This document shows positions 10,382 to 47,300 of a DNA stretch of 64,000 nucleotides, one piece after another. Source of the stretch: Branchiostoma lanceolatum (lineage: Eukaryota > Chordata > Leptocardii > Amphioxiformes > Branchiostomatidae); contig NC_089736.1 of NCBI RefSeq assembly GCF_035083965.1, forward strand, positions 3,395,001-3,459,000, written 5' to 3'. The notes beneath the pieces are model-generated. The model was not told the origin of the DNA, searched no databases, and saw only the letters and a list, made by a program, of their open reading frames with translations. The translations under genes and the position numbers were made by a program. Within the stretch, counting starts at the first letter, position 1, and each line of letters starts with the position of its first letter.

Positions 10382-10416
10382 GTAAGTTGGCTTGTACTTC
10401 TAGAATTCTTTCAAAA

Positions 10417-17047: not shown

Positions 17048-17350
17048 TAGGGGTCTGCATGGGAGGTCCCGATCACGCTTTGCAATAAATTCTGGAAAGC
17101 AGTGACCACGTATTACGCTTCATTTGTGTAGGCTGGATGTTTCGCGTTTGATGACTTCAAAATTTACAAACTATAAACAGCAAGACGCAGAAACTTGAGA
17201 AAGCAACGGCCCCGTATTACGCTTCCTTCATGCTGGCTGCATGTTCACGCATAATGCACAGATTACGTTAACGTTAATCAGAGCAGTTGTAACGGCTTCT
17301 AATTGCGCAACGTCATACAGCTGATTACGCCTTGCAGCATGCAGACCCCA
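17048..17350. mobile_element. MITE-like insert in the right arm
   Basis: Terminal inverted repeats AGGGGTCTGCATG / CATGCAGACCCC. It is the counterpart of the element at 10417-10625 but longer and diverged. Internal GATTACGC/GCGTAATC words are shared with the left copy. Confidence 0.5.
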
Positions 17351-17386
17351 TATTTGAAAGAGTTCTGAAAATAAAAGGCAACTCAC

Positions 17387-17535
17387 AGTCAAAGTCCGAT
17401 GCACTCTTGTCTCGTAGATGGCTGACAGGTCCCACAGGAATACAGGCAAATCCTCCTGGAATATGGACAGGCACACAGGATATAGACAGGTCCCACAGCA
17501 ACATGGTCAGGTATACAGCATCAGCTTCTAATAAC
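17387..17535 (-). other. Splice-flanked exon in the right arm of the inverted repeat
   Basis: On the minus strand the acceptor ACACCCCAG| (exon start 17535) and the donor TTGACT|GTGAGT (exon end 17387) bound 149 bases. The frame is open through LLEADAVYLTMLLWDLS and on to VPVGPVSHLRDK. It mirrors 10193-10381. An upstream stop and an indel relative to the other arm mean coding status is uncertain. Confidence 0.4.
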
Positions 17536-21593: not shown

Positions 21594-22068
21594 TAGTGCT
21601 GCATACCGATACTGTGTACCGGTACTGTACCGTAAAAATGGATTAGGTACTGGTCCAAAATACCGGATCATGAAGTACCGGTATTGTACCGAAATAGATT
21701 TACACAAAGTACATATGCTTATTTTGTGGCTGATCTCCTAACCTCATGGCCTCATGCACTACCAAACGTGACCAAAGTGACACCTTGGAACAGCCGCGGT
21801 AACTAATATGCAACAGATCATTCAGGCAGTCCGGGAGCTTTGATAGCAAGGCCAAGGTAGTTTGGCTGTAGGAAACCTAGTTATGTTCTTTGAATAAAGA
21901 TACTGACAAGTTGAAAACAGTTTATGTATGTTTTTGTCATCATTGAAGAAGTTCAGAAAAACACATTTAATTTTTCAAATTGTTTAGGTACAGGTACAGG
22001 TCCGGACCTGTACCTAAACCTCTGTACTGGTACCTGTACCTGATGTTACGTTTAGGTACGCAGCACTA
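21594..22068. mobile_element. hAT-type MITE at the GPCR stop codon
   Basis: A 475-bp element with terminal inverted repeats TAGTGCTGCATACC / GGTACGCAGCACTA, flanked by a perfect 8-bp duplication TTCCCGAA (21586-21593 and 22069-22076). The 8-bp duplication and TAGTG ends are those of hAT non-autonomous elements. The interior is built of TACCGGTAC-type words and includes a 24-bp perfect palindrome at 21992-22015. There is no transposase. Confidence 0.9.
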
Positions 22069-22914
22069 TTCCCGAATGATTTCGATGTAGTCCAGGATTG
22101 TTTCTCTGACGGCGTTTTTATAATGGCGGAACATCTGAAGCAGGGCCTCCCGGTAGATTTCGTACCGGAACGCGTACAGAAGGGAGTCCGAGAATGTGTT
22201 AGTCAAGAGCACAATGTGTAGGACGTCCTGCGCTGTACTGAACGTAGACATCGACATGATGTTTGACATAAAGAACATGGCGATCGGCGGGAGCCAAGTC
22301 AGCCAGTAGACCAATAGGATGATACCCAGTGTCTTCGCAGCCTTAAACTTGTTCTCTAAAGCCTCTGGAGGGACCGCGTTAGCCTCAGGACTGGGAGAGA
22401 CGTTCTTCAGATTGTCCTTGTACCGCTGCGCCTCTCGGTAGATTAGAATGGCGAGTATCGTACTGATGATCATCATGAGCAGGCAAACGGCGCTGGAGGC
22501 AGAAGCCTCTGTCAGATCGGGCACGCAGGGGTAGATACTCGTTGGCGAGGCCTGCATGTCGTTCGCGCCGTGATATGTCACGACTTTCATCGTACCGTTT
22601 CGTATTACTCCTACAAAGGACGGCACGACAGCGAGGAGAACACACATCGCCATGGCCAGGGCTACTCGCGAACGGGACAACTTTTTTTCGAAGGTCATCG
22701 GTGCGACGATGTGGATGTAGCGGCAAACCCAGAGACACAGTAGGAAGGAATGCGCCAGGGAGCCGACCACACAGACCAGGAAGGCTTGGGTCTTGCAAGC
22801 CGTGCCGCTGAGATACGTCCCGTGTGTCGTGCTGTGGATACTTGACGGGATGAACAGGAAACTACTGAATACGTCCGTAACAGCCATGGCGGCCAGGAAG
22901 AAGTTTCCAGGCTC
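22066..22914 (-). CDS. GPCR exon 2 (TM2-TM7 and tail)
   Basis: Acceptor TTTCCAG|GAGCCTGG, then EPGNFFLAAMAVTD through TM7 and a 40-residue basic tail ending IIRE. TM2 to TM7 lie on one exon, as in many recently expanded class A families. Confidence 0.85.
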   Translation of the reverse strand, partial: EPGNFFLAAMAVTDVFSSFLFIPSSIHSTTHGTYLSGTACKTQAFLVCVVGSLAHSFLLCLWVCRYIHIVAPMTFEKKLSRSRVALAMAMCVLLAVVPSFVGVIRNGTMKVVTYHGANDMQASPTSIYPCVPDLTEASASSAVCLLMMIISTILAILIYREAQRYKDNLKNVSPSPEANAVPPEALENKFKAAKTLGIILLVYWLTWLPPIAMFFMSNIMSMSTFSTAQDVLHIVLLTNTFSDSLLYAFRYEIYREALLQMFRHYKNAVRETILDYIEIIRE

Positions 22915-24854
22915 CTGGAAATGACAAGAAAATAAAGAGTGTACATCAAAAGCCGAACCTATGAGTTAGAGTATTTCAGAACCATTGTTTTAGATTAGTA
23001 TTAGAGATCCCGTCAGTGTCATCATATGAACGTTACCATGTATTCTGTATCTGTATGCCTGTACTTAGCCCGATAGGGCATGGATGTACAATAAAGGTTA
23101 TCATTATAAGCGAGGCGAAGTATAACCTGTGCATACTAGTACATATTAGTCATTGTAGATGTAGTGAGACATCACATTCTTATATCACTGTAATTGTACC
23201 ACTGCTTTATCACCATGGCCTGTACTTAGATAGCTTACGGGAGCATAAACGTACAATAAGTGTCATTTATTCACTCATTCATTATACATATTTCAATGGT
23301 GCCAGTTTCAAAGAATGGAAGTTTGATATCTATCTTTCTACCTCAATGCCAAATTTCAGGTCATTTGACTGAAAAATGACAAAGTCAATGACAAGAGGAG
23401 AAGTCGTGTAGAGAGAAGTATAATAATAAATGAAAATCGTGAAGTACGAAGCACGCCACAAACGACTGTATCTAGAATAGAGGAAAGGATGGAGACCCTC
23501 AATTGTCAGTTTTTTGTGGATGTGAATCAAAATCAAAAAGATGTTGACTGGAGAACAGCACAATGCTGCATGTGCGCGATAAAGGCTCTGAAAGTTGTGG
23601 GAGGACTTCGCGAGAAACAATTTAATGTCTGGAAAAATATATCTGCCCACTGAACCGTACTTAAACGAAAGAGCGCCCCATTGCCATGGCTCTCTTGCTG
23701 ATTCTTGAAGAGGAGCCTTCAACTCTCGACACTCACCCCAATGACCCACTCGACAGCCTAGGCCTTGGCTGATTGAACTCGTAGCTTAAGTGGACAGGAG
23801 TGCCCAGGTCTATTTTACATGCAAGGGCGGAAGACGAAGACGCGTTTTTGCCAACTGAGAGCGATGGCGATGCTAGATACTACATAACATTAGTTCTGTG
23901 GATAGAATTATGGTGATTCGAGTAACGATTTTTTTGTTCATATTAAACACAAATAAACAAATACAGACAAGATGACGAAGAACTCTAGTTACATTAAACT
24001 TATATCAGCGCCGCTATCAAATAAGAAAAAAATATATTGTAAATGCTTTAAAGTTCGCGTGGTTTTGATTTCGCGATAGGGAGAAAATGGAGTGTTCGCG
24101 GTGGTTTTAAGTTCGCGTTTGAGACAATAGTAGACAATGGGGTAGGACGGCAAAATGTTCGCGGTGGTTTTAATTTCGCGGCGGAGAGCTTGCCGCGAAA
24201 ACATAAAACCAACGTGACGATTTCTGCATTTACAGTATAAACTGACATAAGTATATGCAATGAAGACATCAATTTAGGGTCCAAATTCTACTTCTTTGAG
24301 CGTAAGTCCTAACACCCCCTCCCTTTGAATTTCAAGGACACGGATGTAATTTGAATCCTGTGAATCATACAGGTACAACACGTCCACTTTGGGTAATGAA
24401 ATCCCGTGTTAGGCTAATTAGAGCAGCAAAGAGAGGATCCACGAAGTAGGAGATGTTTTAAGTACCGTTAGGAGGGGAATTCCGAGAATCGGGTGAAGAC
24501 CAGCACTCAGCTTTACGCAAATAGGCGTGCATATGAGAGTCATCTTCTATACTCTAATGAGTGGACCTGCTAAAGTATACTCAGGGGCTGCCAACATGCA
24601 TAGGAAATGTGTTTGTTCAGACAAATAAAATCAGACAGAAATTTCTTCTTCTTTTTTTCCTCGGAAAGATTTCTGTTTCTTGTCCGTCGATGTGCTGTGT
24701 ATTTTCTATTTTTCTTTCCATACAGGCTGCTTAAAGAAAATGAGTTTTGTAGTATCTATTTCTTCATTACCGCCATGTCTCTCTCACTCTCTCTCTCTCT
24801 TCCTTTCTGTCTTTTTACCCCATCGCTCCTCTCTCTGTACCATGCACACACACA

Positions 24855-25283: not shown

Positions 25284-26334
25284 GTCTGTTTCTCAATACC
25301 TGGTTCTCCGGGCTTTCAAGATACCGCCACAAGACGCGTCGGCGCAAGAGGACGCACAGGAAGGTCTTCACGTCTGACCTGACTGATTCTAAGGGCACTA
25401 TCGTACGAAATGATGTTCCCAGCGTGCAGCTATCTCAAACTTGCACTGAGGTTTGTACACCGCCGTGCTCTTGATAACATAATCTTGCCATTCATGTATA
25501 CAAGTATTTAAGGCGGATTTATGCATACTACATACGTACATAACGTTATCATTTCCTACAAGATGGTTATTCAAGTGACTGCGCATATCTCACAAACTGA
25601 CTTACGTATTGAATCGTACCTTATTTCAACGGAGATCTATTTTTCACACGGCTGATGAATCATAAATCTCGCAATTACAGAATTCAAAAAGAAACAACGC
25701 AAAGAAAATCTTCCCAGTAAAGTCGAGCGCATCAGAACAAACAGTCAGTCGAAAACAGTGATTACTTGATTCAATATGTCGCCATGTTGTCTGTTGTTTC
25801 TAGTTGGATACTAAATATTGTTAAGGCCGTTTTATCCTACCAATCATGTTGTGGATGAGTAGAATATTATCATTTGTACATTTTCCCTTGCGATAGATCC
25901 ACACTATTCATCGGCGTAATTGCAATCACTAAGTCTGAAGAAAAGGACGAAAATATTTATCTCAAACAGTTATCTTCAAAAACCCTAGCTTTATATAAAA
26001 CCCAGAATGAACTTTAGAAATTAACCTCAAAGCACATACACTGTGTTATTCAATGACTTCACCTCGCCTCCCCTTCCGAATCCTCTTATGCAAGGACGGT
26101 GACTACCGAAGACATCTAAATAAGATCTAAACAAGTCCACCCGCAGAAGACACTTTCATTGACAGCAAGTGGTCTCTGGCAAGTCAACCGTTTTTTTTTC
26201 TGCGTCCTCATTGTTACCAATTAACGTCACGTACCATCAGCTAGAACGATCGTGTCATTCACCGTAGCAAACTATCAATGCGGAGTTGTCCTGTCAAGTG
26301 TGATTATTATCAACATCTTGATTACAGAATAACA

Positions 26335-26592
26335 AAGTGCTTTTATTCACAACCAAGTATTTTACAAGAGCCGACTTTTCGACGACTATCTGTGAGGGCA
26401 ATACTGACTTGTTCACAGTGCACTGAAGCTAGGTGGTACTGCTAACAATGCTTCAGTGCACAGTGAACCAGTCAGTATTGCTCTGATGAAGATGACAGAC
26501 AGTCATCTAAACGTCGGTTCTTGTAAAATACTTGGTTGTGAATAAAAGAACCTTGCTATTCAGTCATTCGCCAACCTGATGAAATTATTCAC
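26335..26592. mobile_element. Foldback element with hammerhead-like core (A)
   Basis: Inverted arms: TTTTATTCACAACCAAGTAT (26341) and its complement near 26526-26550, around a palindromic middle (GTGCACTGAAGC / GCTTCAGTGCAC). The plus strand carries CTGATGA (26483-26489), A, stem GATGAC / GTCATC with loop AGACA, then TAAAC where a hammerhead needs GAAAC. The element ends with CCAACCTGATGAAATTATTC, shared with elements B and C at 37 kb. Penelope-like retroelements and metazoan retrozymes are known carriers of such cores. Confidence 0.6.
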
Positions 26593-26732
26593 GGATCTTG
26601 ATTACATTATAGCAATGTCCGTGTGGATGTCAGTTGTGATATAGCCTTGCTCCGAAGTGTCGAGTACCAGCTCAGAAAAGAACAAGAAATATATGCCTTT
26701 AAGTATCAGAGTTATCAAAGCCCAGGATTGAT

Positions 26733-26850
26733 GTGTTCAACAATTCGTTTTCCCCTAGAACCATCGTAGAGTGGAACTCGTTGCCACCAAGTACCGTACG
26801 GGAATCCTCATTAGATAGCTTTGAACAATGCTTGCAGTTAGATGTGCAAA
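26733..26850 (+). pseudogene. LINE reverse-transcriptase C-terminal remnant
   Basis: The plus-strand frame reads NSFSPRTIVEWNSLPPSTV and then SSLDSFEQCLQ, the characteristic C-terminal end of non-LTR retrotransposon ORF2 proteins. The rest of the polymerase is absent; a 5'-truncated copy. Confidence 0.7.
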
Positions 26851-27478
26851 AGTCAGGTGTGACAGGTCAATGTAAAATAACCAGCTGGTGTCGCGCCGCG
26901 TGCCTGCGAAGTTGGTGTGTTACGCAGAAGGGTTATTATACCGGCTATATACATGTACATGTACATGCAGATACAGATCGCTCCCTGTCACTTACATTGT
27001 ACACCCCTCGGCGATCGCCCAAAGAATTTCATAGATAAAGAATAATATTTGAACGATTTGTGTACTTTGCCGACTTTTAAGTCATACATGTATATGTTTT
27101 AGTATATTCCATTTATGAAAACAAGGGTCACACAACTCCAATTTTAGTAGCGGTAAGGTCACCCTGCTCAGCGGTCTACTTTCTTACAAGCAACCTTGCA
27201 TTTAGACCCACATTTATATAACGGAATGGACATGAGACCACCCGCTTCCCGTCCAACGTTAATAACTTATCTATTAGTTAAGTATTGTTTGATCTACGAA
27301 CATCTAAAAATAGTAACGGAATTTGGTGCTGCGTCACTCACTTACGTAACCCAGAAATTTACCCCCTCGTACGAGAAATGGAACGCGCGACTTCCTGTCC
27401 CACTTACAGTTGTTCTAACGACTTCTAAACCTCGTCACCAGCAAACTTTGAGAGTATCATCTTTAACAAACCGACAAC

Positions 27479-27685
27479 ATGCCGATGTTTGCCATACTTG
27501 TGTTGCTGTGGATGTCACGAGCTGTCTGTAGTTACGACGACACGAGTTTCGTGGCTGCTGTGTACGAGCACGCCGTGGTGTGGACGTCTGACCCCACCCA
27601 GCCCCCGACCCGCCAGGAGGCCATAGACCACATGAAACACAACCTGGATGTCTACCGCGCACAAACGAGGGAAGCCAAGCGGCAG
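27479..27685 (+). CDS. Vanin-like exon 1
   Basis: 69 codons: signal peptide, the segment FVAAVYEHAVV typical of the family N-terminus, and the donor CGGCAG|GTACGA. Confidence 0.85.
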
Positions 27686-30600
27686 GTACGACTTCTGGCT
27701 TAGAGTTTAAGCCTCTCTCACTGGACCCGCGACGCGTTGGCGACCTCGCTGCGCGCTAGATTGAATTTGAGTTAGCCTTGACCTACAATGGGAATACCAT
27801 GCAAAACGTACAAGTATGCCAAAAAACAACAACAAATCACACAAAGCGTAAAAAGACTCGTTTTTCATCGATGAAATTCGTTTAGCGCGGTGTGAAATCA
27901 CTCGGTCGCAGCGAGGTCGCCAACGCGTCGCGGGTCCAGTGAGAGGGGGGCTTGTTATCCTTATCTATAATTTGTTTCCCTATATTGCATCTGAGGCAAA
28001 AACACGTTTGCCCAAACGGGCATTGACCCCACACCTTCCCGGTATTCTCATTATCACCTGATTGGTTTGCTTTCAACCTTAAAGGTCAGGAACAGACTTA
28101 AGTTAAGATTCGTGATGGCGGGGTGCCAGGGCACCTCACAGACGTGCTGATACTGAGTCACCGCCGGGAGATAGAGCAAACATGCGTTAACTTAACGTGT
28201 GAGGAGGTGAATCTGAGTATGGCTAGGAATATCTTTGGCGTGTTGGAAAAGTTTGCTACACAGGGCAAAGACATTTCACACAGACATTTTGCTAACGAGG
28301 AAAAATGCAAACATACCTTAGCCTGGGACCTCCTCCCCCCTACTTTGCCCCTCGTGGGGTTATCTGGGGGGTAACGATGATGATGATGATACCTTAAAAT
28401 GCGTAGGGAATCTGCCAGTGTATGGCTTGGAACGATCCTTTGGCGTGTTTGAAAAGCCTAAAAGAGTGTCAGTGCATTTGCTGTTGACAGGTTTAGGGCT
28501 ATGTTTTTCATGATTCTGTATGTTTGTTGGGGATTTTTTCACAGTGTACACGTCCTTCACCGCCCCTCCTGTTCCATTCCTTGTCTTAAGTTAAAACTGC
28601 ACAAGAGCTAGGCGTATCATTTGGCGTGTTGGAAAAGTGTCGGGGCATTTGCTATTCAGGGCTACACGGGGCCAAGGCATTTCACATAGACATGTTGATA
28701 ACAAGTCTCTGGAGAGAAGACAAACATACGTTAACATGTATTGGGGATCTGTGGAAGGCTCGGAAGGAATTCTTTGGTGTGCTTGAAAGGTGTGCATTTG
28801 CTGTACACAGGTTCAGGACTATAAGTTTTTTTCATAATTCTGTATGTTTATTCGGCATTTTTGAACAAAGTTTGACCCCTTTTGCACTTTACTGTACAAG
28901 TTCTTCAACGACCTCTCCTGTTCCTTTCCTTATCTTAAAACTGCACAAGGGCACAAGAACGAATTGACGAATGTAAACGATGTCTATTCCGCTGTGTAGA
29001 GAGGAGTTCGTAAACATAAAGTAGAACGCTTGCCTTCAAGGCTGCAACGCATGCGTCCATTTAGTGTATGATATATATTTATGTATGTGCGCACATTGAA
29101 ATGGCTTTCAAACAAAGGTCGCCTTTAAGCAAACAGGGCTGGTTTGGTGGTACTTAGAGCTGACTCAATTTGCTTACTCACTGTGATAATATCTGACCTT
29201 TGGACAAGAGAAGAAACACAAGAGTGTGCCATAAACTCTTTGTGGTAATTGTCTCATAAATATCTTTCAAGTTTTTTCTTCTTCTACGTGTTAAGCGTTT
29301 TGTGGCGGTAGTAAACAAGAGCAAACATGCGCATGCGCACAAGGAACAAACTAATGAATACAAACTGTCCATGTCCCCTGTCCAGAAGTATTGGTAACGT
29401 CTGGACAAAAGTAGAACGTAACTTGCCCCTAACGCTCACGTTAACTCAATGTTATATGTAACATTAAAATGCCTCTTTAACAAAGATTACGCTTCGGCAA
29501 ACATAGCTGATTTGGTGGTACTTAGGAATGACTCAATGTGCTTACTCATTGTGGTAACATCTGATCTTTGGACTAGAGCAGCAACCTAACGGTGCAAAAA
29601 CGCCTTGTGTTGATTGCATCATAAATACCATTCAAGTTCTTTTGCTTAAGCGTTTTCTGTTTACTTTTCCCACAGGGCGCGGACATAATCGTCTTTCCAG
29701 AGGACGGAATTCACGGTTTTCAGTCCAGAGACAATCAATATGCCTACTTGGAGACCATCCCTGACCCGGAGAAGATTGTATGGAACCCATGCGACGATCC
29801 CGACCGTTTTAACGACACCCCAGTACAACAAGACTTAAGCTGCATGGCCAAAGAGAATGACATCTACGTTGTCGCAAACTTCGGCGACAAGCAGTTTTGC
29901 GACACTTCTGAAGATAGTTCCTGTCCGAATGACGGTAGATACCAATTCAACACTGACGTGGTCTTCGCTAACGACGGAACGATCGTCGCCAGGTACCACA
30001 AAGAACACCTGTTCATGACCGAACTGCAGTTCAACCGTCCGCCGGCGGTGGAGCTCGTAACCTTCCAGACGCCGTTCGGAAAGTTCGGAGTCTTCACTTG
30101 TTTCGACGTTCTGTTCCACGACCCCGCCGTGGCGTTGGTGGAAGATTACGGGGTGGATACGATTGTGTTCCCGACTGCTTGGATGGACGTTTTGCCGCTT
30201 TTTGTTTCCGTGGAGTTCCACCAAGCCTGGGCTATGGGCATGGGCGTCAACTTCTTGTCCGCTAACACACACGTTCTTGATAGACGTATGACCGGAAGTA
30301 CAATCTCCACCCCTTCCGGTGCCGTCAGCTACTATCATGACATGAACTCGACCGATGGAAAGCTATTGGTCGCAGAAATCTCCATCAAACCAATTAAAAA
30401 TGTCGTTACATCTACAGATCTACCAATCACAGAGCACGACACAGCGTTCGTTTCTGACTTGTTCGGCGACCCTTTTACTTTCGTGGAGCTTCAGAAAGAA
30501 AGCGACTACGTCATTGTCTGTCAGAATGACCTATGTTGTAGTCTGAATTACACAAAATCGGAAATTTCATCGGAAATCTACGCCTTCGGCGCCTTTGACG

Positions 30601-31007
30601 ATTTGCACACAAAGGAGGGTCAGTACTACCTACAGATATGCGCGCTGGTGAAGTGCGCTAACTCGTCACGTGACAGCTGCGGTCAGCCAATCAGCGACGC
30701 GCAGACGACATTCTTCCACTTGAACATGGCGGGAAACTTCAAGTTCCCTCACGTCTTTCCCGAGGTTCTGACCAGCGGAATCGGAATGGACCTCGCTGTA
30801 GGCGAATGGGAGTACAAGGACGGCACTATACTCAGTACATCCGGGATCTCCAAGCCTCTGCTGTCAGCTGCTCTATTCGGCCGAGTGTACGAAAGGGATG
30901 ATGGGACATCTAAACATGCAAGTGGCGCGAAGGAGCTACATGTCCACTTCTTCCTGCTGTTTGTTTTAGTCTCTGCTCTACAGGGAGTCTTATTCGAATG
31001 GTTGTAA
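27479..31007 (+). CDS. Pantetheinase/vanin-biotinidase family ectoenzyme
   Basis: Two exons (27479-27685 and 29676-31007) joined in phase 0 give 512 residues, the usual vanin length. Residues 1-18 form a signal peptide (FAILVLLWMSRAVCS). The nitrilase-type triad is complete: Glu78 in VFPEDGI, Lys178 in RYHKEHLF, Cys211 in FTCFDVLF. These positions are essentially those of vertebrate vanin-1. A hydrophobic C-terminus (HFFLLFVLVSALQG) suggests a GPI anchor. Known members hydrolyse pantetheine to pantothenate and cysteamine (vanins) or release biotin (biotinidase); the sequence does not decide between them. The start ATG at 27479 directly precedes the signal peptide. AATAAA follows the stop within 10 bp. 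Confidence 0.93.
27713..27952. mobile_element. MITE in vanin-like intron
   Basis: Terminal inverted repeats of over 30 bp: CTCTCACTGGACCCGCGACG at the left and its complement ending CCAGTGAGAG at the right, continuing into GTTGGCGACCTCGCTGCG. The interior is not coding. Confidence 0.75.
27953..29675. repeat. Vanin-like intron with two duplicated blocks
   Basis: 28120-28560 and 28575-28960 share GTGTTGGAAAAGT, CAAAGACATTTCACA-like and CATTTGCTRTWSACAGG words. 29124-29285 and 29488-29650 share TTTGGTGGTACTTAG and TGACTCAATKTGCTTACTCA. These are diverged direct repeats and no exon was recognised. Confidence 0.6.
29676..31007 (+). CDS. Vanin-like exon 2 (catalytic domain to C-terminus)
   Basis: Acceptor TTTTCCCACAG|GGCGCG. 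Carries all three catalytic residues, paired cysteines and the hydrophobic C-terminus. A single long exon where vertebrate vanins have several. Confidence 0.9.
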   Translation, partial: GADIIVFPEDGIHGFQSRDNQYAYLETIPDPEKIVWNPCDDPDRFNDTPVQQDLSCMAKENDIYVVANFGDKQFCDTSEDSSCPNDGRYQFNTDVVFANDGTIVARYHKEHLFMTELQFNRPPAVELVTFQTPFGKFGVFTCFDVLFHDPAVALVEDYGVDTIVFPTAWMDVLPLFVSVEFHQAWAMGMGVNFLSANTHVLDRRMTGSTISTPSGAVSYYHDMNSTDGKLLVAEISIKPIKNVVTSTDLPITEHDTAFVSDLFGDPFTFVELQKESDYVIVCQNDLCCSLNYTKSEISSEIYAFGAFDDLHTKEGQYYLQICALVKCANSSRDSCGQPISDAQTTFFHLNMAGNFKFPHVFPEVLTSGIGMDLAVGEWEYKDGTILSTSGISKPLLSAALFGRVYERDDGTSKHASGAKELHVHFFLLFVLVSALQGVLFEWL

Positions 31008-31364
31008 GTGAATAAAGATAAAGCCTCCGCCCCTGAGGCGTCGCCAGGAAAATCACTGCTATTATCAACCATAGTCAACCATAGTTAACATAAAACTTTC
31101 ACAGTAGACTAGATAACCATTTCGATTTCCATGTATTCTCCATATACTTTTTTGTCTGCAATTAGCCTTTTGGCATGAACTTGCAATAAATAAAATACTA
31201 TATTATCCCATTCAAATTTTCTGTTCCAATACTTGTAATCTAAAGCTACCTTTCCAGAGTTCTAATTCATATAATGCGGACACATTTACTTGCCAATTGA
31301 CGTTCTGTGAGTTGAAAGCTTTTAAGCAGTGAAAAACTGATTGAAAAGAGATCGGTTTTATATC

Positions 31365-31478
31365 GTGTGTGCGTGTGTGTGTATGTATGTGTGTATGTGT
31401 GTATGTGTGTGTGCATGTGTGTGTGTGTGTGAGCGTGTGTTTGTGTGTGTGTGTATGTGCGCGCGCCTGTGTGTGTGG
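31365..31478. repeat. (GT)n microsatellite
   Basis: Interrupted GT/GTAT dinucleotides. The open frame across it is an artefact. Confidence 0.9.
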
Positions 31479-31523
31479 TATTAAGGAAAAACGACAGGTG
31501 TGCCTGACTGCGTGGGAATCGTG

Positions 31524-31540
31524 TTCAGCACCAAGGACAG
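31524..31540 (+). promoter_or_regulatory. RE1/NRSE-like site
   Basis: TTCAGCACCAAGGACAG matches every defined position of NTYAGMRCCNNRGMSAG. It lies about 500 bp past the vanin-like stop codon, downstream of the GT tract. Confidence 0.45.
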
Positions 31541-32199
31541 GGGAGACGTTGACCGTTAAAGAAGCCCTGACGCCAGGAAATGTTAGCGATTAGGGATGCG
31601 CCTTCACTTTGTAAATAGATGGTGTTGTGAACCCTTGTATTGCACATTCTATAAAGTATTTTGTGAAATAGTGTAGTATTCCTTACAAGAAAGTAAACAG
31701 AGGACATAACTCGCACGGCTACAACCATCCGAGTGGAAATGCCATCTAACGGATGTGTCTTGAATTGCAACTGCAGCTATACAACTGCAAGTGCTATCTA
31801 TCTGAAACCTCAGTCAAGAAGGTTATGTTTTCAAATATATAGCCATTTATCAGTTGGTGCAAGTAGTCATAATTTGCACCTTATCCGTCATGGAAAAGTT
31901 GCGAGAGAATTCGTCAGTGAGTGTGTGTCTGAACGACAGAATAACCAAATGCAAGATATATGAGATTTGTATATCGGTTAAAAAGCATTAAATTTCGCAT
32001 ATTTCAATATAAACGTTAAACACACCGAGTCCACACTAACAAATATCTGCACTGCTTGATTAGGGCTTATATGGGATGATACGTCCGGTGACCATTACAT
32101 GTATTTTAAACAATGAACGCTAATACACGAATGTTGATAAAGACACAATGCAAGACAGTCATTCCAAAAACTAAAAGGTCTCCCTCGATGCAATAAGTA

Positions 32200-32460
32200 C
32201 TAGTGTGGGATCGTGTGGCACAACGGCAGAGCTTACACCAGCCAGCACTCAACACGGATGGGGGGGGGATCAGAACCAAGTGGTCCCGGGTTCGAATCAC
32301 CGATGTCACCGATCTTGTGCCCTTGGGAAAGGCACTTTGCACGACTTTCCTCACTTCACTCAGGTGTAAATGGGGAAGGTCGTGTTGAGGCCACCTGGTG
32401 GTGCCGAATGGCAGCCGCCCAGACCCTTGCGACAGTTCCACAAAATGCAAGTGTGGATAA
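32200..32460 (+). mobile_element. tRNA-derived SINE (main family)
   Basis: A box TGGCACAACGG (32216-32226), B box GGTTCGAATC (near 32289) and the conserved body CCCTTGGGAAAGGCACTTT, then ACGACTTTCCTCACTTC. The same body occurs at 53.8 kb and, inverted, at 63.7 kb. A G-run and extra 30 bp separate the boxes, so it is not a functional tRNA. Confidence 0.85.
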
Positions 32461-32639
32461 AATATGTATATGTTGTGTATTACGTAAAACCTGTAAGCCC
32501 TGCACCAATTCAGCACTAAAAAGACTGCTATTGCGGATAATTCTGACCAATAAAACCATTATTAAAAAAGGTGTATAGTAAAAGGCAACCTTGCGAAGCC
32601 ACCTCGGAACACCCCTGCAATTCCATCCCTGCGTCGGGG

Positions 32640-33490
32640 TGGTTCAGTGGACACACTCTATTTTGGGAATACCTCATTCCCCATGGTAGGGTTAGCCCCC
32701 TCCCCCCATTTCACCACCAAGAACATCGCCCGCGGACGCACCGCGACCTTCCTCCTGCAGCAACTGAGCGTTCTCCGCGGCTGGGAGCAGCGCAGACACG
32801 TACTTTAATGTTATGTTGTGGAACAAGGTTTGTTTAGAAGACTGCATACATACAGTAGGGAATAAGAATCCTTCATTGCAGTATTAAAGACATCCATGGC
32901 TTTAGCCGTTCCGGTAGTTCGGAGAGGCTGAAATGTTTTCTTATGGACGAAGGGTTGTTTAGAAGATTGTATACATACAGTAGGGACTAGGGACCCCCAT
33001 TTCAGCACCAAGGACATTGTGCGCAGACGCACAACCACTTTAGCCTTTCCAGTGGTTCAGAGAGGCTTTGGTGTTTTGTTAGGGACGAAGGGTTGTTTAG
33101 AAGACTGTATAGTTATCACATACAGTAGGGACTAGGGACCGGTCGACCCCCATTTCAGCACCAAGGACATCGCCCACGGACACACCGGCACTTTAGCCTT
33201 GCCTGTGGTTCCGAGAGGCTTTGGTGTTTTGTTATGGATGGAGGGTTGTTTAGAAGACTGTATACATGCAGTAGGGACTAACTATAATTCATTTTTCAGT
33301 TTTAAGGACATAGCTCATGGACGCACTGTGGCTTCAGCCGTTCCGAAAGTTCGGAGAGGCTGTACTGTTTTGTTATGTTATGGACGAAGGTTGTTAAGAA
33401 GACTGTTTACATACAGTAGGGATTAGGGATCCCCATTTCAATACCAAGGACATCACCCGTGGACGCACCACAACTTTACTCCAGCCGCTC
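32640..33490. repeat. Minisatellite of 125-150-bp units
   Basis: Units begin near 32828, 32952, 33091, 33244 and 33391 with TTGTTTAGAAGACTGTATAC, then CAGTAGGGACTAGGGA and CCCCATTTCAGCACCAAGGA and CGGACGCAC; a partial unit precedes them. Units at 33001 and 33154 carry RE1-like words with one mismatch (final base). Confidence 0.85.
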
Positions 33491-34440
33491 TAATCATAAG
33501 CGGACCCATATCGCATCTACAAGACTTTCATCTAATATTTCCCGCCAGTCTGAACAGATTGCCCAGAATCAGGGCCACGTATTCAGTGTTCAGCCCTGAA
33601 AGAATCACATGTCGATGTTACTATTCAACTGTTGCTTATGACGTGTATGATGACGGTGGATTACAATGATATGCTCTCTACTGTTACAAATGAAAGCTAG
33701 ATAAAACTGTTACCGGATAAAACGAAACTGAAAACGTGCGTGCCTGCGCAGTTCGACTGTAACGTGACACCTGTGATACCGTAGAAGCCGTGTAGCACTT
33801 GCGTCAACCGTTACTGCTAATGGGGCGAACCTTATTACTTTAGAAATATACTGTTGCATTCTTTACAATCGAAAGACCTTGAAACCTAGTGACTCAAACA
33901 ACTACGCCCACGGCACAAAATCTAGGTATTAAAGACTGACGAAAAGGCTAACCTGAACATTAAAGACGCTATTAAAGAATGTTTGATATACCCAAGTTGT
34001 CCCTCCCCAAACGTGTATATACAATCATCAAGACCTTCGAGCAAATGTGTTATTTGCTGCCATGATGACCAGAGCTTTCAATCAAAAGATTTGACGTTCC
34101 TTTAACGTGTCGGTCGCGGTGGTGAGTTTCTGTTTTCTTGCTCTTTTGTGTTTATTTTTTACGCCTAGGCATTTTAACCGATGAATAATCTCAGCGATTT
34201 TAGAAGCAAAACATCTACTACAATACCTATAATGTATTCATTAAAAGATCGTCTACCCACCGTCTCCCTGAGTCACGACTTGTTTTGCATGGTATAATGC
34301 ATAATGTATAGTCATATTGGCCTGCGCTTGTGTAGTGATGAATACAGTGGACTGACACGGAACACGTTCTGTGCGGACTGGACCGTTTCTCAAGATCACC
34401 GCACCTCATATTTCCAAATTTTCTCCTCAAGCGCCGTTTA
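33491..34440. other. No features seen
   Basis: Mixed-composition DNA without convincing open frames, RNA genes or repeats. Confidence 0.5.
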
Positions 34441-34479
34441 AACTATCTCCACAGTACTCTAGAGACACAACAAGTGCAG
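34441..34479 (+). other. Possible 5' UTR exon of the first NPSR-like gene
   Basis: The donor CAAGTGCAG|GTAAGA at 34479 is strong, and an acceptor-like CTCCACAG stands 25 bp before it. The coding exon at 44228 is itself preceded by a strong acceptor (TTCTCTTCAG, exon start 44172), so that gene needs an untranslated exon upstream. This is one candidate; nothing ties it to the gene except position and strand. Confidence 0.2.
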
Positions 34480-37140
34480 GTAAGAACTATTTTTCTCACT
34501 CTTTGCAGTCATATGGGCTATGAGTATGGATACGATTTTGTACTTTGACGCACAAGTATGTTCTGTTATGTTGTAAATATCAGTGTATTGTTTGTAAATG
34601 TGTACCTAGGGCCTCTCTGAAAATCAGTGCCAAGCCACTGAGCTACCTTAGTAAAAGAATACAGAAATGAAAAATAAAATAAGATAAAAAGATTACCCTG
34701 GCCCTTTACGGTACGGAACCGTGGCTTGTTGATGTAGCGGCGTTTTCAAAGTCGGTAGAATGCTGGGCGGTGTAGCTGTTTACACACTCATAGACTAATC
34801 TAGTTCAGGCTGCAACAACTTATATGTTGTTAATAAGACTCTCACTGCATAAAATACGATCTTTAAGTATACCTTAAAGCATTCATTAAGGTCTCATTTT
34901 TGACTGGAGTAAAGAAACAGTTTTAACCTGCACGCATGTTTTAAGGTGTGCATAAAGATTAAATTTCACGCATTGTCTTAAAAGTGGGGTCTAAGGTACG
35001 ATACTGCGGGTACTGTGTACGTACTGCAGTGTTGAGGTTAATAATCCGAAACGGTGGACGGGGAAACAAGACGAATTGGTTGTGTGTCTTGGTAGACGAA
35101 TATGCAGTCTAAGATCGACTTTTTATTTTCTTCAAAGGCATGAATGTAGTTGCCGGTAGCGAGTAATATTCTATATCGCAATGTGCAAAGCAACGACCAT
35201 ATAAGCGGTTAAACGTCTATTTTTCACCAGGAGTTTTAGGCCAACATATCTTAATTTCCGATTCTTCATATATGATAGCTTAGTGTCTTAGACGTTACCT
35301 GGCAAGATTCGACAAACCCCTTTGGGCTCCATATTAGGCAAAAATATGAAAATTCATTACGTTGCAGAACATGTAAACAAATACAGCGTAGGTTCTTTAA
35401 CGTGCTCGACGTGTTGCTCTCTTCAACCAAGGGAAATTCTTACCTGCAGCTAGGTATCAAATTTCAGCTGTGCGAGTGAGAAACTTCGTGTAAAATGCTT
35501 TTCCTAAGGGCCGAATAGGCTGGGTCGCATAGCCACAGAGATACAACTACTTCCGGGCCATAAAGTACACTTGATACGTTATATAACGTACCTTCTACCC
35601 AAATCGCCCAACGCCAAGACATCGACAAACAGTTCTCAATTTCTTGGCGTTATGTAAGACTTTAAAACTCCCAATATTAATGTCTAACTGTAAGCACCAT
35701 TCTACCTTTACAAAAGCCTCACGGGACGGTTTCAATGGAAGTAGTTTTATGTGCTGGATAGTTGAGTTATACACAACTACAAACAAGTTCTCAATTTCCT
35801 GTTCTCTGGCGTTATGTAAGACTTTAAAGCTCGTAATACTAGTCCGTACAGTTCCCTGAATGACTGTAGGCACCATTCTTCCTCTGCAGAAGCCGCTTGG
35901 GACATTTTCAATGGTAGTGGTTTATGTGCTGGATAGTTGAGTTATACATACTGCAGCTGGTGGCATTTTGTAATGGCCGTCAGCGACTCATGGAACATGT
36001 TTTCTAAGTCTTCGCCGTCTGTACATTATTACATAATGCTGCTAGATGTGAAATGTTATGAGAAGTTCTTTAAGTCGTTTTTTTACACGCCTGCACTGGG
36101 AATGAGGTATATTTAATCCTACAAGAAAAGCGCTAAAATCCAAAACTATGCTACATCTTCCAGCGGTTGTTTCTCTAAGAACTTTATGACCCAGCCGATG
36201 ATAACTATGTTTTACTAGCTTAAGCTTAAAAGAAATGATCACGGGGAACTTATACTGTAACCGCAAAATCTTCACGGCGGAAACAGGACGTTTGTTTACA
36301 GCTAATGTACTTCCTGGTATTCAAAAACAACCCACCGTCCAAGTTCAACTGGGGACAGACGTTGTTGCATAAGACTCAAAATTTGACACATGAAAACGTA
36401 ATCGTAGAAACAATACTTAAACACCCATGTTCCGCTTGAAATCAATATAGCGTGGGCACAGGTGTGTACCAAAATCATTGCACCTTGTTCATCTTTTATG
36501 TTGTTTGTGACGTATGCTCCTTTGCATAAACTTTTCATAGTTGAGACCTTGAAACTAATATGAATATTGAAGGCATGCATCTGTAGGGGTATTGCCACTG
36601 CACTATTGTTTTGGTTAGAATATTTGTTTTGTTTTAAAACATTGTCAAACCTGAAGAAAATCGCATGAACTAAAATATTTGATAATATATGGTGTTGCTT
36701 TTACTGCCCTGTTATCAGAGTTTTACATGGCTACGTACCACAAAGTGTAGGTGGTAGGAAATATTGGCCTTTTCCTGTGTACCAGTATAGCGGGCAAGCT
36801 GAGCGGGAATAACTAGTTGGAGCATGTTCTATAAGGCCTAGGAAAAGTAAAGTTGTGTTTACGATAAAAGTCCTAAAAAGTTGTATTTATAGGTAGGGAT
36901 TTCCTTTTCTTTCTAGATTTTGGCCGAATTTATAAAAATTATAGTTCAACAAATTGAAATACATCAAGACACTGGTATTTTCAACATCATATTGCAAGAG
37001 ATACAAGCGCATTACTAGTATATCAATAAAATGAACGAAGAAGTACAACATTTGCTAACACATTCTTACATTCATTCGCAGTCTTAATCTGTTAACAGAG
37101 TGTGTAATCTGTAAACACAAGAACTCTGCAAGAAAATTTG
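34480..37140. other. Largely featureless DNA with one tandem duplication
   Basis: 35632-35786 and 35787-35948 are diverged tandem copies (GTTCTCAATTTC, GGCGTTATGTAAGACTTTAAA, TGTGCTGGATAGTTGAGTTA). Minus-strand frames over it owe their similarity to the duplication. No gene recognised. Confidence 0.5.
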
Positions 37141-37158
37141 CAAGACTACTTAATCTTC

Positions 37159-37328
37159 TGTGAATAATTTCATCAGGTTGGCGAATGACTGAATAGCAGG
37201 GTTCTTTTATTAACAACCAAGTATTTACAAGAGCCGATGTTTCGACAGCTGTCAGCCATCTTCATCAAGGCAATATTGACTACTGAGTTCACAGTGCACT
37301 GAAGCTAGGTATTACTGCTAACAATGCA
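37159..37328 (-). mobile_element. Foldback-family element with hammerhead-like core (B)
   Basis: Related to element A (TTCTTTTATTAACAACCAAGT, GTGCACTGAAGCTAGGT). On the minus strand: TTGATGA (37268-37262), A, stem GATGGC / GCTGTC with loop TGACA, then GAAAC (37243-37239). Only the first base of the CTGANGA box departs from consensus. It is a half-element lacking the second arm. Confidence 0.6.
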
Positions 37329-37479
37329 GTCCCATTTTCATTTACTTATTAATCTTCTGTTTTGAATTTCATCAATATTGGATTAAAAATCTAATACCCC
37401 ATGCCAGCGCCCAAGCCTGAGAAGGCTATGGTAGGTAGGCTTTTGCTAGGGTTGGTCGGGCAACCGGTAACACAACAGG

Positions 37480-37845
37480 ATATAGGAGATTCTTTTTACA
37501 CAACCAGGTATTGATCTCACCTGCTGACGTTTCGGTGTCTATCAGACACCTTCTTCAGAGCTTCTGACTGGAGTACAGCTTCTCACCGCTATAAGTAGCC
37601 GATGTAGGTGGTGCTTTTGCGGTGAGAACACTGTCCCAAACTTGGCTAAGTTTGTATCCCCCCTCGTCTCGGTTGCTCTGAGAAGCAGCACACAGAGCCA
37701 AAGCTCTGAGAAGCAATACTCCAGTCAGAAGCTCTGAAGAAGGTGCCTGATAGACATCGAAACGTTAGCAGGTGAGATCAATTCCTGGTTGTGTACAAAG
37801 AATCTCCTATATCCTATATTCTACCAACCTGATGAAATTATTTTC
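37480..37845. mobile_element. Foldback element with two hammerhead-like cores (C)
   Basis: Long inverted arms (AGGATATAGGAGATTCTTT / AAAGAATCTCCTATATCCT). The left arm on the minus strand carries a complete core: CTGAAGA (37558-37552), A, perfect stem GGTGTC / GACACC with loop TGATA, GAAAC (37533-37529). The right arm on the plus strand carries CTGAAGA (37734-37740), A, stem GGTGCC / GACATC, loop TGATA, GAAAC (37759-37763). The right flank ends in the CCAACCTGATGAAATTATT seen in A. Confidence 0.65.
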
Positions 37846-40560
37846 GGCGGAAACACAACATTTTGGGCGACGGCTAAGGATTCTATTACTGTGGTAATGG
37901 CGCCTAAAAATTCCTGTTTATGCAGAATCCTGACAAATTGGGGGGTTTGGTGCGATTTCCTGTCTAGAATCCAGGCATAGGATGTTACGCGGAATAACAA
38001 TAAAGGAAGCATTATAGTGTACTTTGTCTGGGATTTGTACTTTAAAACTGTAGAACAGCCAGTAGGACTGTGATAAGGAAGCTGGTTGTAGTGTAATTTG
38101 TCAAACATGTAGAATGATGGTTTATGTAATTCTGCGTTCGTAATAGCTAATATATGTGCTGTACATAGAGAACATACAGGCAACACATTGTTGTACTTCA
38201 AAATGAAGCTGGATCAATAAAAATTTGACTTGAATGAACAGTAACTCTTCCAGTCAAAACTGCCCAAGAAGATCACTCAGGTGACCGATGAAAGCTAGTC
38301 AATATGGACAGGTGCACGCAGTCACTGTAGACAGATAGAATTCTTCATCTCAATGGGAGAAAATTCAGCCCAAAAGTGGTCACATTGGCCAGGTGGCCCT
38401 TGTGTAGATGTGGTCACTTGTACAGGTTTGGCTGTATTTCATTTAACAAAACAACTAACTAACTAACCAACCAACCGACCAACCAACCAACAAATCAATC
38501 AATTAGCTAACTGCCTAACCGTCTCTTAACACAATTGATTTCTACTGCGGTCATGATCATGCAAAGTGAAATCGAACTAGAACTCTTCAAGTCTGAGATG
38601 AAAAAAAATAGTGCCTCTTTTGACCAAACAATTTTGACAACCAGTTCTATATATATATATAGCTGAAAATTGCTGTTATCTCAAAAGACTGTGAGCTCAA
38701 GGCAGTTTTAACGTTGACTATCACCTACCATAACCATTATCAATGACTTTTCATAACTCCCTATGCAGTGATCTAGCATCTAGAAAGAACAGATAACCTT
38801 CCCAATGCCCCCACTGAAAATTACACCATTAAATTCAACCTTCCCACTGGGGACTCCAATAAAAGAATAAAACTGTTAACTCTTCCGATGAACCAACAAG
38901 GGACAAGTCACTGCAACAAATTTAAATCCTACTCAGCCCCAATCCATTTGGAAATTCCTCTAAGCCTTAATGGTATAACATTGTGTAGAATAACAGGATA
39001 CTCATGCGGCCTTAACTTATCTAAATGATTTAGATCAGTTCTGCGTGAAAAGTAGGATGAGTCGATGCACGTATTACAGATCCCCAGGCGTTCGCTAGAT
39101 TCAACAAGAAGCGATTATATGAAGTAAGGATGGTTTGCAGGAGCGGTTAGAGATTAGGGTTTATGTATTGTGGTTCTTCGGCCAAGATCTTATCATCAAA
39201 ACGCTTGCAGATGACAGAATAATGCCTGCCTAGAGTGCAATAGATCATAGAGGCTTTCTGCTTATGAGATATGATGAGGGAGGGAGATAAGAGATATGAT
39301 AGAATGGTCTTAATTCTCTATGAATCCATCAATGATATCATTCTTGCAAGTGTAGATTAGAGACTGAGTTTGGCGTTAGGGGAGAAATCAGAATGATCGT
39401 TTTGCAATAGGTAATGGTCGAAGATATTTTAGGATGATATATAAAAGATGTTTAAGGCATCATAATCAAGAGGATCCTAAGTATTGAAACTCTGCATCTA
39501 GCAATGATATTATTCTTGCAACTGACATTAAGGAGAAAATCAAATAATCGCTTTGCAATCTGGAAAATTAATGGACGAACAAAACGCTTTTAGGATCTCC
39601 AAATAAAAGGTACTGTGAGGAATTATTATCAAAATGGATTTAAAGTCATGTTTTGGTACCGTTATATGGTTGAAGAAATTACCTGCCCTTGAAGTATTTC
39701 CTCAAAAAGTAACTTAACAAAAGGTTTATGCATGACAAGTCTGACTTTTTTGTGGTAGGGGAGCTATGATAATCTTACAAGTGTCTGTAAATCCTGCAAC
39801 ATTTCAATGTTGCCATGAAGACGATAATATCAAAACAAAGGAAAGTAAGACTATAAAACACCTCTAGGGCCATTTAGTTTTCGATGCTTATTTGTTGGCT
39901 TCTTCTACCTCCTGTAGGCTACATTAGACTGAAGAAGGGCATAACTTTACAGGGAGGGATACTGTAAGGCTGAAACCTTAACGACTGAAATGCATATTGA
40001 TTAGATATTTCCTATGTCACCAATCGCCATTACTTGAACCTATCCCTCGTCGACTGACGAAGGTGCTATTTGATAAGTTTACGTAACCCAAAAAGCTGGG
40101 CAGGTCATGACGTCAAATTGCAGTTGAGCTGACGTAAATGTGTTATAGACTCGCTACATTGAAAGGATAGACGTTACATATTACTTTGATTTGGCTGATT
40201 AAAAGGACATGCAATCAAAAAGACACGCGGGGTCATGTTGGCTGAACAGCGCATTTAATGGAAGTGGTGTCATCAAAGACCATTTCATAGACTAAAAGCA
40301 GAGAATATAGAGCATGAGACAACACCAATATTATTCTTTGGTTATGAAACATTTTATGTGAATTATTTTAGTAAGAGAACATCATGCAAACAACAGTTTC
40401 AAGGATGGGAGGAAAACTTGCATCAGTCTCTGTTCACTCCCTGAACCTACGAGTACCAAGGTATGGACTTCCCCTCAAAGTCTGTTTTTCCTCTTCCTGT
40501 TAAAGTGGCCGCTATCACTGTGCTGATCATTCCGTCGCTTGTAACGGTTGGAGGAGGTCC
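37846..40560. other. AT-rich DNA without genes
   Basis: Contains an AACC/AACT microsatellite (38451-38510), a short TA tract at 38652, and a weak ancient duplication (39320-39470 against 39480-39620, sharing CAATGATATYATTCTTGCAA). No coding signal. Confidence 0.5.
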
Positions 40561-44395: not shown

Positions 44396-47300
44396 GTAAT
44401 TCATATGTTTGCTTTATATCGCAGGAAAAGGTTGGTTCACAATTGGAATTAAGAGAGCATTTAGTCCAAATGTATGGTGAATGTTTATATGGTACGCAGA
44501 CGCATTGTGTCAAATTTCTGTCTCTAATAGTCTGAATTTATATTGAAATTTATTTGTCTGTGCCCTATATTCTTAATGTATTGTGACAAGAATTAATTTC
44601 GAATGAATTCAAATTGTACTTGGCAAGATTGGCATTTGGCAGCCCCTTTTCTCTTGTATGGACAATGTTTTTATGGTAGCAGCTCTATCATTTCATTGTA
44701 TAGCTAAAAGCAAAGAATCTGGTACTAAAACTGTAAACTTATGACAGGACAGTGAATAAAGTTTTTCTCACCAAGGTAAGAATGCAAGATAGTTTTTACT
44801 AATCGAAAAGTCTAGTTAAGATTGTGATTGAACGGCAATGGCAAATCGATCTATGTACATCAAAAAGCACCTCTCCCATCTCCATTAATCTTAAGGTGTG
44901 ATATATGGTACACTCCATCGAACAATAAAGCGAGATGAATGGCGATAACCAATGCACTGGGGCTGAGTAATGACCATATTGTATTGGCTTTATCACCTGA
45001 ATCAGAGAGATATCAGTTTAACACCAACGCGTGTGCGCAAGCGATAACTGGAGTCCAAATCTGGAAATCAAATTTGTTTTGCAAGTCCTTAACAATAAAG
45101 AAACATATCCAAATCCAATTTCCCAACATATGTCATCAATAACTTCTTTGATACAAACATATCATAGATAAAATCAAGATTGTTCTCTGACCAAGTTTGA
45201 AAGAAAGACGGTATCTAGGGTAGTTACTGCGGTCCAAATGAAACATGACACTTGCGGGCCCCCTAGCAGTATTTTCAGGTACTTCAGCATTACAGACAAA
45301 CACCCCCTTCTTGAAAGTAGATGGGATTGATTAAGGAAAAGGCGAATGAAATGAATATAACTAAGTTAAATATCTGTGATGGCTGGGGCTATAGCATTAA
45401 AAACCTCACAAAATCTCTAAATATTTCACTGAGGAATGACATCTTCAATTTTTTTTCTCATAGACAGAAAAGCAGGTGACACTGTGGGTTCTATTTGCCT
45501 ACTTTGTGGAGGGGAGTTTTGTTAGCAAGTCATTGATAACTTGTCTTCCATGTAGTATGAATGAATCTCACACATTGTTTTACAAAATTAAAAGTTTTCA
45601 ATAGTTCCCAAGCAATAGGAAGGTACAAAATTATTACTAAAAGGAAATATATTTGTTCAGTGAAATCCATCTCGTGCAAAGCAAATCACATCCGTCAATC
45701 TCAATCATCCATAATGATAAAAGTTCCAAGCAGTAACTTGCAAAATTACCTTCTGGCGGCGCCATAGGTTCTGGTTTCATGTACCAACACAAATGAGCAT
45801 TTATCATCATGATATTTTTAAGGATTATTACCTCCAGGAAGTGATGGCTGAGGCGTATGTCATTAAGAAATTTAAAAAAAAAACTTGTTTTCTTATAGAC
45901 TGAGCAGCTGGGTATGTAATATAAACAAACAAACAAACAAACAAGTATGTTTAATGTCTTATCTTTTCTCCTAGACAGAGCAGCTGGTGACGCTATGGGT
46001 TCTGTTTGCCTTCATCGTGGTGGGGAACAGCCTGGTGCTGCTGGTCATGTGGATGGAGCGACACAAGAAAACGCGCATGAACTTCTTCATCATGAACCTA
46101 GCTCTCGCCGGTATTGATCTATTTAACCGTTAACCAGAGGTTTTAATTTTGGTGTGTTCGTTTGTTTGTGTTGGTGTGTGTCCGGTGTGTGGATGGTGTT
46201 TAGCACCAAGGACAGGTTTGTTTACCTGTGTGTTGATGGTGTTTAGCACCAAGGACAGGTGTTTACTTGTGTGTGGATGGTGTTAAGCACCAGGGACAGT
46301 TGTGTTTGCATGTATGTGGATGATGTTCAGCACCAAGGACAGGTGTGTTTGCCTGTACGTTTGGCGGGGCGGGGAGATAGTGACCGTCTAAATATGTTCC
46401 GATCTTTAACCTCTGCACCTTCAATGATCAACAATAAAGTATCCAGACTCAAAACAAGCATGCAGCAACGCTTAACGCCATAGAACTGTCAAAATGAAAA
46501 CAGTCTAGATCCCTCAAATGATTTGACAATAAATCGGATGCTGTGCATGACACGCTATACTAATGACAGCAAGTTTTGCAAAGTCACAGAGCAATGAAAA
46601 GGCACTTGATTCATGATTCTAACGACCGAGAATTGGAACAGGATGGTCATTATCTGACAGTCAGCAAAAAGGGTACATATTACCAGCTTTAAAAGGTACA
46701 TGATCTATCGTAGATGAATACCTGTCGATATCCACTAACAGTGGAAGCGTGATGTATCAAAAGTAACGATTCTATTGATTAATACAACGACTCGCTTTCT
46801 TTGAACAATAATGTTTCAACAAGCTTTTATGGCAATATCGGAAAGGCAGTAGCTTAACCTTTACCACACTGTATTAGACATTTGGCATCCTGTTCCCTAT
46901 TGGTTGGAGAGGTATGCAGCTGGGAGACTAAGGTTGAATGATCAGAATAATGTCATGATACAGACACAGCAGAAATAGATGACCCATATACGTGCAGCGA
47001 AATAGCCTGTTAAAAATGCAAGGTACCCGCAGAATATCTATTATGCTTTTGAAATGACATATCTATGTCAATGTGATTAATGTTTGTGGACAGTATACGA
47101 TAGGGTTCGGGGTATGGTGATTATGTACTGCATTCTGAAATAATCCATTTAAGTATAATGAATAAAAACAATCTCAATTCAAAATACCCAGAAGGTCAGT
47201 AAACGCAACATTAATTCTAAAGAAGTTGATAATTTTCTATCTTCGAATGAGGTATTATGAAATAACAAAAAATGATTCCTATAGATACTCCTCAACTGCC

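Follow-up and report, generated by a model that had tools for sequence, protein, structure and literature searches.

The window analysed here, a 64,000-nucleotide stretch of the Branchiostoma lanceolatum genome (NC_089736.1, positions 3,395,001 to 3,459,000), contains three short insertions, E1, E2 and E3, which hold no open reading frame (ORF) and are each bounded by exact target-site duplications. We conclude with high confidence that these are three Penelope-like insertions, each with a minimal type I hammerhead that has decayed, and they probably belong to the Penelope/Poseidon type, reduced to its pseudo-long terminal repeats (pseudo-LTRs). The feature is of a known kind, and the copies neatly show how such elements insert. 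Their parts are as follows, with E1R denoting the right arm of E1, and E3L and E3R the left and right arms of E3.

26315 to 26326, no strand: left target-site duplication of E1, ATCTTGATTACA, exact repeat of 26595-26606
26327 to 26594, plus: E1, 268 bp, head-to-head pseudo-LTR pair (foldback) with inverted arms and a 12-bp duplication, no ORF
26480 to 26518, plus: minimal hammerhead of E1R, GCT CTGATGA A GATGAC AGACA GTCATC TAA ACGT C GGT
26562 to 26594, plus: tail of E1, 33 nt, right arm only; the left arm ends opposite 26561
26595 to 26606, no strand: right target-site duplication of E1, exact repeat of the left copy
37150 to 37161, no strand: left target-site duplication of E2, TTAATCTTCTGT, exact repeat of 37349-37360
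37162 to 37348, minus: E2, 187 bp, single truncated pseudo-LTR with tail, recognised by its likeness to E1R and a 12-bp duplication
37233 to 37271, minus: minimal hammerhead of E2, GCC TTGATGA A GATGGC TGACA GCTGTC GAA ACAT C GGC
37349 to 37360, no strand: right target-site duplication of E2, exact repeat of the left copy
37469 to 37477, no strand: left target-site duplication of E3, AACACAACA, 9 bp, exact repeat of 37852-37860
37478 to 37851, plus: E3, 374 bp, head-to-head pseudo-LTR pair (foldback) with inverted arms and a 111-nt centre, no ORF
37523 to 37561, minus: minimal hammerhead of E3L, the least damaged, GCT CTGAAGA A GGTGTC TGATA GACACC GAA ACGT C AGC
37731 to 37769, plus: minimal hammerhead of E3R, GCT CTGAAGA A GGTGCC TGATA GACATC GAA ACGT T AGC
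37815 to 37851, plus: tail of E3, 37 nt, right arm only; the left arm ends opposite 37814
37852 to 37860, no strand: right target-site duplication of E3, exact repeat of the left copy

The nested inverted arms of E1 (26321-26393/26495-26567, 86% complementary, and 26395-26429/26450-26484, 91%) enclose a centre of 20 nt, and those of E3 span 114 nt (37477-37590/37702-37815, 92% complementary, 103/112). E2 matches E1R at 125 of 140 aligned bases, with 9 gap columns, and carries the 20-nt centre of E1 in the orientation expected if this piece belongs to the E1 left arm; the right arms of E1 and E3 are identical at only 87 of 125 positions. The initial annotation had placed all four hammerhead cores in foldback elements, which is correct for those at 26483, 37558 and 37734 and incorrect for the one at 37268, located in the single truncated pseudo-LTR E2. 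E2 and E3 (37162-37851) are separate Penelope-type insertions approximately 130 bp apart and in opposite orientations. A 28-bp tandem repeat of 2.4 copies (GCTCTGAGAAGC..., 37675-37742) lies at the inner edge of E3R, perhaps a reiterated portion of the 5' end of the pseudo-LTR.

The duplications measure 12, 12 and 9 bp in E1, E2 and E3, respectively. The 12-mer of E1 is found at its two sites only in the window, and a repeat as long occurred in the 20-nt flanks of 43 of 100000 random spans of E1 length; the corresponding numbers are 33 of 100000 spans of E2 length and 310 of 100000 for E3, the 9-mer of which appears once elsewhere in the window (minus strand, 11130). In both foldbacks the tail is confined to one arm; the tail-less left arms stop at the same aligned position, 46 (E1) and 48 (E3) nt past the predicted ribozyme cut, despite the limited identity of the right arms. 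The insertions as a whole reach 79 (E1), 74 (E2) and 85 (E3) nt beyond the cut. An 18-nt sequence, CAACCTGATGAAATTATT, is present without mismatch in all three insertions, 1-9 nt from the 3' end, and is absent from the remainder of the window at up to 3 mismatches. BLAST of the insertions against the window revealed inverted or single units without any tandem arrangement; further copies were not found there either, the weak matches at 9536 and 56245 being dismissed upon inspection.

All four hammerhead-like cores were located at the coordinates and on the strands given by the initial annotation: 26483-26512 (plus), 37268-37239 (minus), 37558-37529 (minus) and 37734-37763 (plus). Their geometry is identical, consisting of a 3-nt helix I strand, CTGANGA, A, 6 nt, a 5-nt loop, 6 nt and GAA, followed in every copy by ACGT (ACAT in E2), C or T, and the second 3-nt helix I strand. 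Exact CTGANGA and GAAAC occur together at 37529-37558 (minus) and 37734-37763 (plus), whereas the E1 copy at 26483 has TAAAC in place of GAAAC and the E2 copy at 37268 has TTGATGA in place of CTGATGA; at the RNA level the conserved core, CUGANGA plus GAAA, is complete in two of four copies (E3L and E3R), with UAAA in E1 and UUGAUGA in E2.

The helix II stems GATGAC/GTCATC, GATGGC/GCTGTC, GGTGTC/GACACC and GGTGCC/GACATC are as previously listed and do change on both sides, with 23 of 24 cells paired. Helix I comprises 3 bp and is complementary in all four copies (GCU/GGU in E1, GCC/GGC in E2, GCU/AGC in E3L and E3R; 12/12 cells, one two-sided change), and its pair adjoining the cleavage site, U-G in E1, C-G in E2 and U-A in both E3 arms, includes the intermediate. 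Jointly, helices I and II pair in 97.2% of cells, with two-sided changes at three pairs, and pairing falls to 17-47% when the 3' partners are slid by 1-3 columns. The cleavage triplets GUC, AUC, GUC and GUU (E1, E2, E3L, E3R) all conform to NUH, placing the predicted cut after 26515 in E1, 37236 in E2 and 37766 in E3R.

Helix III is represented by a self-complementary ACGU alone in three of four copies (ACAU in E2). Within a single molecule it would amount to an A-U and a C-G pair without loop, which cannot form; as ACGU is self-complementary, a 4-bp helix III is possible between two molecules, or between two copies on the same RNA, with helix I likewise formed between the partners. Judged from these pairings, only a dimer could give rise to a ribozyme, for which two copies would have to join through ACGU:ACGU and their helix I strands. 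Palindromic stems III that allow dimers are known from other animal hammerheads (PMC3088659), and type I hammerheads without helix III, perhaps acting as dimers, are said to be conserved in Penelope-like elements (PMC7761336, PMC6155905, PMC7229834).

The core motif by itself is close to what chance provides. CTGANGA-N10..25-GAAAC matches the window three times, compared to 0.56 times in an average shuffle (three or more in 5 of 100 shuffles), with one of the three, at 37829, having a different geometry, and a fixed-spacing core with 2 mismatches yields 19 matches versus 17.8 in shuffled sequence (39 of 100 shuffles reach 19); the loose pattern was therefore rejected as evidence. The full descriptor (3-bp helix I, CTGANGA, A, helix II pairing, GAAACGTH, helix I') with a fully paired helix I instead recovers 2, 3 and 4 window loci at 0, at most 1 and at most 2 core mismatches; in a brute-force search of 500 dinucleotide-shuffled sequences, the corresponding means are 0, 0.006 and 0.056, and the maxima 0, 1 and 1. 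A faster script with 200 shuffles returned means of 0, 0.005 and 0.04 and unchanged maxima, and in a first run of 20 shuffles at least one fully paired fit was present in 4. Dropping the helix I condition gives 6 loci versus a shuffle mean of 0.92 and a maximum of 5; the additional loci, 37265 (the 37268 copy in another register) and 951 (minus), were set aside, with helix I paired at 1/3 and 2/3 positions. These comparisons measure the unusualness of the layout and not four independent events, because the descriptor postdates the inspection of the copies and the copies share descent.

Points that weigh against the assignment proposed here concern covariation, covariance models, core integrity, folding and coding capacity. 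With four related rows, shuffling provides a weak control for covariation: the observed score is reached in 10 of 500 shuffles and the number of two-sided pairs in 49 of 500. Rfam hammerhead models gave no match in the whole window at the gathering threshold, and none on 37100-37900, 26200-26700 and 37500-37600 with E values allowed up to 10, the permissive scans returning solely weak sub-threshold matches to other families (microRNA and similar). The covariance-model check that the initial annotation had named beforehand as refuting consequently went against it for every copy; we do not regard this failure as decisive, as published Penelope hammerheads are said to be without helix III (PMC7761336).

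An additional A separates CUGANGA from helix II in all four copies, in place of direct adjacency, and the claim that the 37.53 kb copy agrees with the full core consensus hence applies to CTGANGA and GAAAC and not to this nucleotide. Variants with an added core nucleotide have reportedly been described. In known hammerhead alignments, 1-2 nt occur between CUGAnGA and the adjacent stems (PMC10085705). E1 furthermore has U at G12 and E2 has U at C3, a position at which a C3G mutant of the ribozyme of PAc, a Poseidon element of the green anole, was inactive (PMC11167929); the palindrome is broken in E2 (ACAU), and helix II of E3R contains one mismatch.

Folding predictions are also unfavourable, among them a competing hairpin, CUGANG/CGUCRG, that is described below. 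The dimeric hammerhead is calculated at -12.3, -10.6, -18.9 and -10.3 kcal/mol for the four copies, versus cofold minima of -30.8, -36.1, -33.6 and -15.6 kcal/mol. The complete E1 and E3 insertions are predicted to fold as single hairpins (-139 and -145 kcal/mol for the two strands of E1, -230 and -229 kcal/mol for those of E3), in which the ribozymes face their own complement, save where the E1 left arm is devoid of 9 nt of its own hammerhead. As the copies are mutated and those in foldbacks lie each opposite its own complement, the ribozymes in their present places are most likely inactive or nearly so.

Neither the telomerase-like reverse transcriptase nor the GIY-YIG endonuclease that define Penelope-like elements is encoded in E1-E3, which at 187-374 bp are too short for either, and Pfam detected no Penelope-type reverse transcriptase or GIY-YIG domain among the 8 of 37 listed window ORFs that were scanned. 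Reading the hammerhead-to-tail frames for a Penelope N-terminus uncovered no intact frame through E1R or E2. Considering the insertion length, the absence of protein is expected for copies consisting of pseudo-LTRs only; membership in the Penelope group accordingly rests on anatomy.

That anatomy has close published counterparts. Bdelloid Penelope copies (Pen2a, Pen2 and Pen3) share with E1-E3 the inverted pseudo-LTRs, a palindromic head-to-head junction, a 31-bp tail that is optional on one pseudo-LTR, and short duplications (8-10 bp), and solo pseudo-LTRs exist there too (PMC3846280); however, the inverted pairs described for bdelloids enclose an ORF or captured DNA, while the arms of E1 and E3 are separated by merely 20 and approximately 111 nt (PMC3846280). 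In PAc, reverse transcription initiates internally on the RNA, the tail being the sequence between two start sites, and both target strands are cut and extended, with the hammerhead located upstream (PMC11167929). With the main PAc start sites at 111-118 nt and the cut at 26 nt into the ORF, we compute a distance of 85-92 nt, similar to that of E1-E3, and PAc likewise has an optional tail of 30-40 nt (PMC11167929). PAc differs in that it is a full-length element whose pseudo-LTRs lie in tandem and whose ORF starts within the ribozyme, whereas the window insertions are pseudo-LTRs only, head to head in two of three cases. The published minimal hammerheads of Penelope elements (Cervera 2014 and Lunse et al. 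2017, as presented in later papers) agree with our copies in their pseudo-LTR location, in having helices I and II and no closed helix III, in the dimer mode and in their metazoan hosts, whereas the window copies are decayed and reside in ORF-less insertions. A Penelope entry from Branchiostoma floridae is named in PMC11167929. Among the titles and abstract openings of the literature searched, we recognised no description of ORF-less Penelope foldbacks with hammerheads, or of amphioxus hammerheads.

Taken together, the target-site duplications, the 3' tail on one arm, the head-to-head inverted pseudo-LTRs and the minimal dimer-type hammerhead strongly support a Penelope-like origin. Of the two sources named by the initial annotation, Penelope-like elements and retrozymes, the second is not supported, as neither a tandem repeat of the unit nor a closed helix III was found. 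Metazoan retrozymes, which are short non-autonomous elements with circular RNA and type I hammerheads, do resemble E1-E3 in size, in lacking an ORF and in having duplications longer than 4 bp (PMC7229834). Nevertheless, they are described as tandem repeats with canonical hammerheads (PMC7229834), and a one-sided tail is a feature of Penelope elements (PMC3846280), rendering a retrozyme origin very unlikely. Long inverted arms and target-site duplications are also what foldback DNA transposons, similar to miniature inverted-repeat transposable elements, would display, with the hammerhead being incidental. Yet the tail is one-sided in both foldbacks, the duplications vary in length, and E2 is one-armed and truncated with a duplication of its own; unequal arms, varying duplications and a one-armed copy are marks of retrotransposition, and we regard a DNA transposon as extremely improbable.

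A different type of objection would retain the element and dismiss the ribozyme, namely that the conserved segment is a hairpin without ribozyme function, such as a site of protein binding or priming or a portion of an ORF start, that resembles a hammerhead by coincidence. Indeed, a competing hairpin, CUGANG/CGUCRG, pairs in 22 of 24 cells and is held by the predicted 39-nt folds of E1R and, at least in part, E2 and E3L, whereas helix I is present in those of E2 and E3R; the silence of the Rfam models is in line with this notion. However, the outer helix of this hairpin has no two-sided change and suffers an A-G mismatch in both E3 copies, as opposed to helix I of the hammerhead with its complete pairing and its one two-sided change, and every core letter of the hammerhead is kept in both E3 copies. 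A coincidental likeness is thus improbable. Outside the window, 90 viral stretches with the core-to-tail pattern were checked by script, of which 9 passed a loose upstream filter and none of the 9 was judged a hammerhead, and the contexts of 19-nt tail matches in prokaryote genomes (9) and viral contigs (3), and of strict hammerhead-GTCGGC matches in viral contigs (3), disclosed no relative.

For the Penelope-like insertions, we propose the following route. Insertion would occur by target-primed reverse transcription, with copying initiated at two alternative sites, located approximately 47 and approximately 80 nt beyond the position at which the ribozyme is predicted to cut; in both foldbacks, E1 and E3, one inverted arm would end at each of these sites. 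Arms of unequal length point to extension of both target strands, each from its own start site, with head-to-head joining of the products. The ORF-less foldbacks may, though less likely than not, be footprints of two-ended target-primed reverse transcription, in which a Penelope-type enzyme would cut both target strands and copy the same RNA from two start sites, with and without tail, the copies then being joined head to head at their palindromic 5' end. Self-priming on antisense RNA is the published alternative for inverted pseudo-LTRs (PMC3846280), and the window cannot decide between the two. The ribozyme of active parents may serve to process tandem RNA. The PAc hammerhead cleaved only with protein, and its loss left in vitro insertion unaffected (PMC11167929), suggesting that ribozyme processing is dispensable for insertion; in E1-E3 the ribozyme is probably a passenger.

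Elsewhere in the window, a nested inverted duplication covers 10331-17437 around a centre at approximately 13.83 kb, with inner arms 13481-13779/13873-14161 that are 96-98% complementary and outer arms reaching 10331 and 17437 that are 83-96% complementary (among the 25 longest of 34 pairs). At 3889-7559, direct and inverted repeats of 80-300 nt form a cluster with spacings of approximately 1.1 and 2.46 kb, which suggests local duplication. A match to the mir-2060 hairpin (89 bits, 46173-46356) lies within a 43-bp tandem array, and repeats related to this array recur at 31.5, 47.7 and 63.4 kb, so that the microRNA locus may be a repeat; the one paper found under the name mir-2060 deals with Branchiostoma belcheri, in line with an amphioxus host. 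Exon-like ORFs match a vanin C-terminal/carbon-nitrogen hydrolase domain (29625-31007, plus), a rhodopsin-type receptor (22066-22965, minus) and an LRAT domain (1306-1827, minus), as assigned by Pfam.

In conclusion, E1-E3 exemplify the persistence of a retroelement ribozyme as dispersed fossils for which Rfam models give no match. These insertions seem to mark two reverse-transcription start sites of the kind mapped biochemically in another Penelope element, and they hint at the route by which inverted copies form. If true, the two-ended model would explain the inverted pseudo-LTRs of the group by one mechanism, replacing self-priming on antisense RNA.

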